Shown here piece after piece: positions 40,721-42,365 of a DNA stretch of 48,532 nucleotides. The stretch is taken from positions 1 to 48,532 of the forward strand of contig JAUZRK010000009.1 of the NCBI GenBank assembly GCA_030950485.1. The letters run 5' to 3'. The DNA is from Candidatus Dojkabacteria bacterium. GTDB lineage: Bacteria; Patescibacteriota; Dojkabacteria; J137. Each line of letters begins with the position of its first letter. The first letter of the stretch is position 1. Position numbers and translations under genes: made by a program. The notes beneath the pieces were generated by a model. That model was given only the letters and a program-made list of their open reading frames with translations, did not search any database and had not been told where the DNA came from.

Positions 40721-40879
40721 TTAAGGCTATCAGCTCTTAGCTTATCGCCATAGTAAATAGTTTTCTAAGAGCTAAATGCTAATAGCTAACAGCTAATATT
40801 TAAATCCTTTAAAGTGATAAGGTTTAGACAAACCTAGAGTATTTTAGTCAAAAGGTCAGGGTTAAAATAATCTTTAAAA

Positions 40880-42365
40880 GATTAATCCAACCGCAGATTC
40901 CCCTACGGTTACCTTGTTACAACTTAAGCCTAGTCGCCGCCCTTAGCTTTCGGCCCAGATAAACTGAGACTTCGAGCAAGAGCAACTCCCGTGCCCTGAT
41001 GGGCGGTGTGTACAAGACCCGAGAACGTATTCACCGCGCCCTGCTGATACGCGATTACTAGCAATTCCGACTTCATGCAGGCGAGTTGCAGCCTGCAATC
41101 CGAACTGAGACTATTTTTGATGGGATTAGCTCCACCTCGCGGTTTGGCAACCCATTGTAATAGCCATTGTAGCGTCTGTGTAGCCCTGGACATAAGGGAT
41201 ATGATGACTGGACGTCGTCCCCTCCTTCCTCCTCGTTGTGGCGAGGCAGTCTCTAGAGTAATTATAACACTAGATAGGGGTTGCGCTCGTTGTGGGACTT
41301 AACCCTACATCTCACGACACGAGCTGACGACAGCCATGCAGCACCTCTATAGCACCCTCGAAGGCTGGATCCGTTTCTGGAAACATGCAGCTATAGTTCA
41401 AGCCCAGGTGAGGTTCTTCGCTGATCATCGAATTAAACCAGGCGCTCCACTGCTTGTGCGGGTCCCCGTCAATTCCTTTGAGTTTTAGCCTTGCGGCCGT
41501 AATCCCCAGGCGCCCTGCTTAACGCGTTAACTGCGGCACTCAATTGACACCTTAACACTCCCGGAGGAGAATCTTAGTGTACAACCAAACACCTAACAGG
41601 GATCGTTTACGGCGTGGACTACACGGGTATCTAATCCGTTTTGCTACCCACGCTTTCGAGCCTTAGCGTCAGTATAGGTCCAAAGAGGTGCCTTCGCCAT
41701 TGGTATTCCTCCAGATATCAACGCATTTAACCGCTCCACCTGGAATTCCCCTCTTCTCTACCTAACTCAATCCTAGAAGTTTTCTATGCGATTTTCCGGT
41801 TGAGCCGGAAGATTTAACACAAAACTTTCTAAGACGCCTACGCATCTCTTTACGCCCAATAAATCCGGATAACGCTTGTGCCCCACGCATTACCGATGCT
41901 TCTGGCACGTGGTTAGCAGGCACTTATTCATAGGTTACACTCAGAACTTGTTCACCTATAAAAGAAGTTTACAATCCTAAGATCTTCATCCTTCACGCGG
42001 CGTCGCAGCGTCAGACTTTCGTCCATTGCGCATGATTCCTAGTTGCTGCCTCCCGTAGGAGTCTGGGCCGTATCGCAGTCCCAGTCTGGCTGTTCGTCCT
42101 CTCAGACCAGCTATCCGTCATAGGCTTGGTAGGCATTTACCCCACCAACTACCTGATAGAACGCAAGCTCATCCTAAACCGCCGGAGCTTTACCTCGGAA
42201 GGACTATCGGGTATTACACCACCTTTCGGTGGGCTATCCCCGAGTTTAGGGTAGATTCTTACGCGTTACTCAGCCGTCTGCCATGCTTGTAAATCAGCAT
42301 TCAACTTGCATACCTTAGGCACGCCGCTAGCGTTAATCCTGAGCCAGGATCAAACTCTCCATAAA
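40880..42365 (-). rRNA. 16S ribosomal RNA (ends approximate)
   Basis: 5' gagagtttgatcctggctcaggattaacgctagcggcgtgcc; 3' gtaacaaggtaaccgtaggggaatctgcggttggatt; about 1.48 kb, no intron. Confidence 0.98.

Follow-up and report, generated by a model that had tools for sequence, protein, structure and literature searches.

The only known 16S rRNA of this Dojkabacterium has very probably lost the core of its anti-Shine-Dalgarno (anti-SD) sequence, in a lineage that had already abandoned Shine-Dalgarno (SD) pairing. Few sequences of bacterial 16S rRNA are as conserved as CCUCC. GGATTAATCTTTTAAAGATT is the 3' end of the sole 16S rRNA gene found in the genome, and CCTCC is absent from it. Relatives appear to show the earlier stages, namely SD use gone, rpsU as the remaining gene with an SD, a changed core (in genome G003 of the same family) and then the loss itself. 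Such staged relatives make it testable what maintains an anti-SD where a species makes no use of SDs.

Loss of the anti-SD as such is already known. It is on record for Bacteroidota, for mollicutes, for symbionts and for a small number of other CPR bacteria (PMC6107228, PMC10783764); 128 taxids without a CCUCCU anti-SD are given in one source, including the CPR bacteria SR1, Campbellbacteria, Wolfebacteria and Peribacter, and the text consulted does not name Dojkabacteria (PMC6107228). The genome studied here resembles the SD-scarce organisms described there in having neither CCUCC in the tail nor an enrichment of SD motifs. It differs from them in keeping a tail/trailer hairpin with matched changes and in having sister genomes which may show the prior steps (PMC6107228). 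What is added here are the intermediate states of the relatives, the hairpin that was kept, and the occurrence of the rpsU pattern in a further phylum.

The 16S rRNA gene and its tail

The window, i.e. the whole stretch of DNA analysed (48,532 nucleotides), is contig 30 of a single draft assembly of 1,408,188 bases (1.41 Mb) in 30 contigs, which is 92.37% complete. On its minus strand the 16S rRNA gene is followed in 3' direction by tRNA-Ile, tRNA-Ala, 23S and 5S:

40875-42365, minus strand: 16S rRNA gene, single copy (Rfam SSU_rRNA_bacteria, full length, 1386.9 bits; the limits are those of Rfam, not a mapped mature 3' end)
40889-40910, minus strand: helix 45, intact in sequence and folding as expected
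40878-40882, minus strand: AATCT in place of the anti-SD core CCTCC, by alignment with the tails of relatives
40644-40720, minus strand: tRNA-Ile (GAT) of the rRNA spacer
40552-40626, minus strand: tRNA-Ala (TGC) of the rRNA spacer
37326-40371, minus strand: 23S rRNA gene (Rfam)
37041-37157, minus strand: 5S rRNA gene (Rfam)

The tail region (40860-40900, minus strand) contains TTAATCTTTTAAAGATT. GGATTA is preserved, and AATCT stands 3' of it, at the site of CCTCC. The tail quoted in the original prediction (40930-40860, minus strand) matches the sequence exactly. It was equally right about the intact helix 45 and about the absence of CCTCC between the 16S tail and tRNA-Ile. A normal tail in a second operon, which it named as a refutation, was sought by an Rfam and string scan of the genome. 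None was found, and all 16S copies found (one) carry the variant tail; a further copy could lie in the part missing from this 92%-complete assembly. GGATNACCTCC occurs five further times in the genome, in no case preceded by helix 45.

In the 16S tree the window groups with its own family and a neighbouring family (support 100/100). Its end branch (0.096) equals that of G003, so the gene is not degenerating as a whole, and judged by its sequence the 16S is ordinary apart from the tail. G003 is a single contig of 862,240 bases, whose 16S tail is identical to that of AP024679.1 ('Candidatus Dojkabacteria bacterium KatS3mg085'); the two were taken as one genome.

The original prediction also recommended an alignment with the 16S tails of relatives, which have small genomes, mostly 0.5-1.6 Mb. 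A search of 86 genomes of the class gave CCTCC in all readable tails but those of G003 (TCTCC) and the window (AATCT). Within the window's family, represented by members of other genera, the genomes other than these two have CCTCC. More widely, 76 of 380 Patescibacteria genomes match the pattern for the window's helix-45 type, all with CCTCC except the window and G401, the latter being a chance match outside 16S. A scan of named genomes for a changed first C together with the window's helix 45 returned three records, and CTCC is kept in all of them. The helix-45 patterns cover only 16S genes with a similar helix 45, and these figures are not a count of all anti-SD losses. No copy of the window's tail was found in viral contigs.

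An assembly or sequencing error, in which case the true tail would have CCTCC and the palindrome would be an artefact, has to be considered for a single draft assembly that was compared with genomes of other genera and whose exact tail had no second occurrence in the scanned collections. However, both flanks have a normal continuation, into helix 45 on one side and into the trailer on the other, where TTATTTTAACCC corresponds to TTAGTTTAACCC of G003, the changed tail and trailer are complementary at the site where a hairpin is expected, and the genome is one without SD use, as expected for a dispensable anti-SD. We regard such an error as very improbable.

Two observations on rRNA genes may be added. 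The spacer between 16S and tRNA-Ile holds an inverted repeat, AGCTCTTAG / CTAAGAGCT (40732-40773, minus strand), which adjoins a run of TTAGCT-like repeats and is possibly a processing stem. Insertions in 16S genes are common in CPR bacteria; the 16S matches of G020, G038 and G009 (contig 32) all stop at model position 873, which suggests gene insertions there.

The hairpin of tail and trailer

The original prediction had noticed that the changed tail is part of an inverted repeat. The repeat is real and its arms are separated by a loop of 3 nt (40875-40877):

40878-40884, minus strand: TAATCTT, 5' arm of the tail/trailer hairpin
40868-40874, minus strand: AAGATTA, 3' arm of the same hairpin, corresponding to AAGGAG of relatives

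The repeat is, however, not new. Relatives have the complement of the anti-SD downstream of it, e.g. CTCCTT-TCT-AAGGAG, so that tail and trailer of the precursor fold as the same hairpin. Every class member tested has this hairpin, and so do most of the Patescibacteria tails listed. The window has (T)AATCTT-TTA-AAGATT(A) and, compared with G003 (CTCCTT-TTT-AAGGAG), three of the six pairs are changed on both sides with the pairing kept. The inverted repeat of the window is most likely, on these alignments, the local form of a conserved element of pre-16S rRNA, and it speaks for a real tail. The hairpin may serve to process the 3' end or to shield the tail.

A stem of this kind could also be unselected. 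In a neutral decay a functionless tail would simply drift, and the hairpin would be due to chance or to a single template switch in an A/T-rich genome; concerted change of a palindrome can occur in one step. The 23-nt region is indeed very A/T-rich, and shuffles of the same 23 nt yield a stem of at least 7 pairs in 1.25% and of at least 6 in 5% of cases. The stem alone is therefore within reach of chance, and the case rests on its occurrence at the expected hairpin site. As the hairpin is so widespread among relatives and is kept here at the same place with a 3-nt loop, neutral decay without selection on the hairpin seems unlikely, albeit less so than an error of assembly.

Shine-Dalgarno use and leaderless starts

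SD use was sampled in 357 kb of the window's genome (about a quarter; 305 starts) and in 160-400 kb of each of eight relatives, with starts taken from simple ORF calling as the first ATG. SD 4-mers at -17 to -4 precede 5.6% of the 305 starts; two control regions further upstream gave 3.9% and 5.9%, and none of the eight relatives showed a clear excess, the largest being that of G072 (12.1% versus 6.4% and 10.4%). Annotated starts of E. coli, used as control, gave 65% versus 1.8%. The G content drops around -10 instead of rising, and the leaders are A/T-rich and G-poor. Leaders pair with the canonical tail or with their own at energies close to those of shuffled sequences, and the sample of the window's genome shows no enrichment, before starts, of words that could pair with the new tail. 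Weak mRNA structure as an alternative start signal was discarded, the region from -18 to +18 in the window's own genome being no different from shuffles.

SD loss affects the class as a whole and, judging from these samples, came before that of the anti-SD; SD-independence is a property of the entire class and not an effect of the window's tail. The original prediction had described A/T-rich leaders without GGAGG, as is the case for the 14 starts examined here, and had asked for SD frequencies, which gave no enrichment. Its suggestion of SD-independent initiation is supported by this result, by the tails of the relatives and by the single operon found. SD motifs should not be relied on when starts are predicted in genomes of this kind.

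A different signal was found close to the starts. TATAAT-like hexamers peak with their first base exactly at -12 before the ATG, in the window's genome (28 versus 11.8 expected locally, p 4e-5), in G003 (35 versus 10.2, p 9e-10) and in G006 (24 versus 8.0, p 4e-6), with a weaker peak in the other sampled genomes. Genes with this box in G003 and G030 have a second, TTGACA-like peak at -35 with 17-bp spacing, which is not clear in the window's own genome. With a -10 box at -12 the transcript start would fall on the AUG, and we infer that many mRNAs are leaderless, while the excess at -12 covers only a minority of genes. Two such boxes and a possible further component of initiation lie in the window:

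47113-47118, minus strand: TATTAT at -12 before the ATG of polA (named by family assignment), likely leaderless
29293-29298, plus strand: TATACT at -12 before the ATG at 29305, likely leaderless
27855-29129, minus strand: ribosomal protein S1 gene with four S1 domains

Promoter boxes near starts are known from leaderless initiation elsewhere (PMC5397173), and in Dojkabacteria the TATAAT-like box, judged by sequence, likewise would place the transcription start at or next to the ATG. A literature search returned no paper on leaderless initiation in Dojkabacteria.

The four-domain S1 gene had been pointed out in the original prediction as a possible contributor. The gene is there, but nothing beyond its presence speaks for an S1 route, and leaderless mRNAs are better supported. 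Initiation mainly by binding of S1 to A/U-rich leaders would fit the A/T-rich, G-poor leaders as well as the gene, whereas the promoter box peak at -12 requires leaderless transcripts as its explanation; we consider S1 rather unlikely as the main route. The two routes are compatible with each other.

rpsU and other possible clients of the tail

In Bacteroidota with SD-poor genomes, rpsU (bS21) is described as having a strong SD that serves an autoregulatory loop (PMC9976891, PMC8710568). The leaders of rpsU were collected from 61 Dojkabacteria, and an SD was counted as strong if its pairing energy with CCUCC was -9 kcal/mol or lower; L151, a match to PF01165, was left out because in the frame read it does not encode bS21. 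A strong SD precedes 26 of the 61 (among L134-L153 and L175-L214), comprising 8/8 in family f6 (TTAGGAGGTGAA), 9/21 in f7, and cases in seven smaller families and among members of f1. Only 26 of all 1,955 leaders in nine sampled genomes pair that strongly (Fisher p 2e-28, a value that overstates independence, the rpsU leaders being mutually related). In G016 and G008 the strong SD occurs in 0/127 and 0/96 leaders, yet their rpsU leaders reach -12.2 and -12.1. Within the limits of the search, no report of this rpsU pattern in CPR bacteria was found in the literature. That rpsU has a strong SD in a CPR class with no other SD use suggests that autoregulation by bS21 arose or persisted outside Bacteroidota.

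The class thus described resembles the Bacteroidota with their hidden anti-SD and bS21 autoregulation in being SD-poor, in keeping CCUCC and in the often exceptionally strong rpsU SD (PMC9976891, PMC8710568). In contrast to them, Dojkabacteria belong to another phylum (CPR), and the window's genome lacks both the rpsU SD and CCUCC; the likeness drawn here is one of sequence motifs. In the window's family the rpsU SD is kept only in G008 and is missing from the window's genome and G003. The resulting 1/8 versus 25/53 elsewhere is not a significant difference (p 0.12). Many relatives without an rpsU SD retain CCUCC (f3, f4 and part of f7), and loss of the rpsU SD is therefore proposed as a permissive step only.

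bS21 is present, and the rpsU of the window's genome (L039, contig 13) has AAAAGAT directly abutting its ATG, 7 nt that are complementary to the changed tail. This word occurs in 1/305 other leaders of the genome. AUCUUUU could accordingly be thought of as an alternative, working anti-SD whose partner is a new SD, AAAAGAU. The model for this would be the alternative anti-SD UCUCA, with its covarying rpsU SD, of Chryseobacterium and its relatives, which like the window's genome have a changed tail core in an SD-poor lineage (PMC8710568). However, the spacing of 0, against about 5-11 nt between SD and start in the rpsU genes of relatives, makes a working SD unlikely, and no working SD matching the tail was found, in contrast to Chryseobacterium (PMC8710568). 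As the complementary words are also not enriched genome-wide and pairing energies equal those of shuffles, an alternative anti-SD is extremely unlikely, even more so than an error in the sequence.

Other possible clients were considered. Era binds GAUCA-CCUCC (PMC10582724), and was rejected as a remaining constraint on the tail, being above the cut-off in none of nine genomes of the family; this agrees with the reported near absence of era and rbfA from Dojkabacteria (PMC12641178). The frameshift of prfB was likewise dismissed as a client, since prfB of the family has no internal stop and hence no SD-dependent frameshift.

Returning to a real loss of the anti-SD core, we propose the following order of events. 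SD use would have been lost first, then the rpsU SD, after which the unneeded anti-SD could have decayed while the precursor hairpin was retained. Many mRNAs would start leaderless by direct recognition of the AUG and others from A/T-rich, G-poor leaders. By analogy with Flavobacterium, the rpsU SD may be a switch for bS21 autoregulation and the last client of CCUCC. With that SD gone in most of the window's family and Era not recognised, no client would be left and CCUCC could decay, the TCTCC of G003 possibly being a partial step toward loss. Pairing with the trailer, for processing or for protection of the tail, would be the remaining constraint. More tentatively, and in our view somewhat short of probable, the ribosomes of Dojkabacteria may, separately from Bacteroidota, hide the anti-SD for bS21 autoregulation alone; in the window's family this client would have been lost and the anti-SD erased under selection for the hairpin. 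If true, the 16S tail has a pairing role in the making of the ribosome apart from the pairing with mRNA.

A separate observation concerns family f3, in which the rpsU leaders L147, L152 and L183 have TATAAT at -12 before the ATG. From this position rpsU looks leaderless in f3, in place of an SD.
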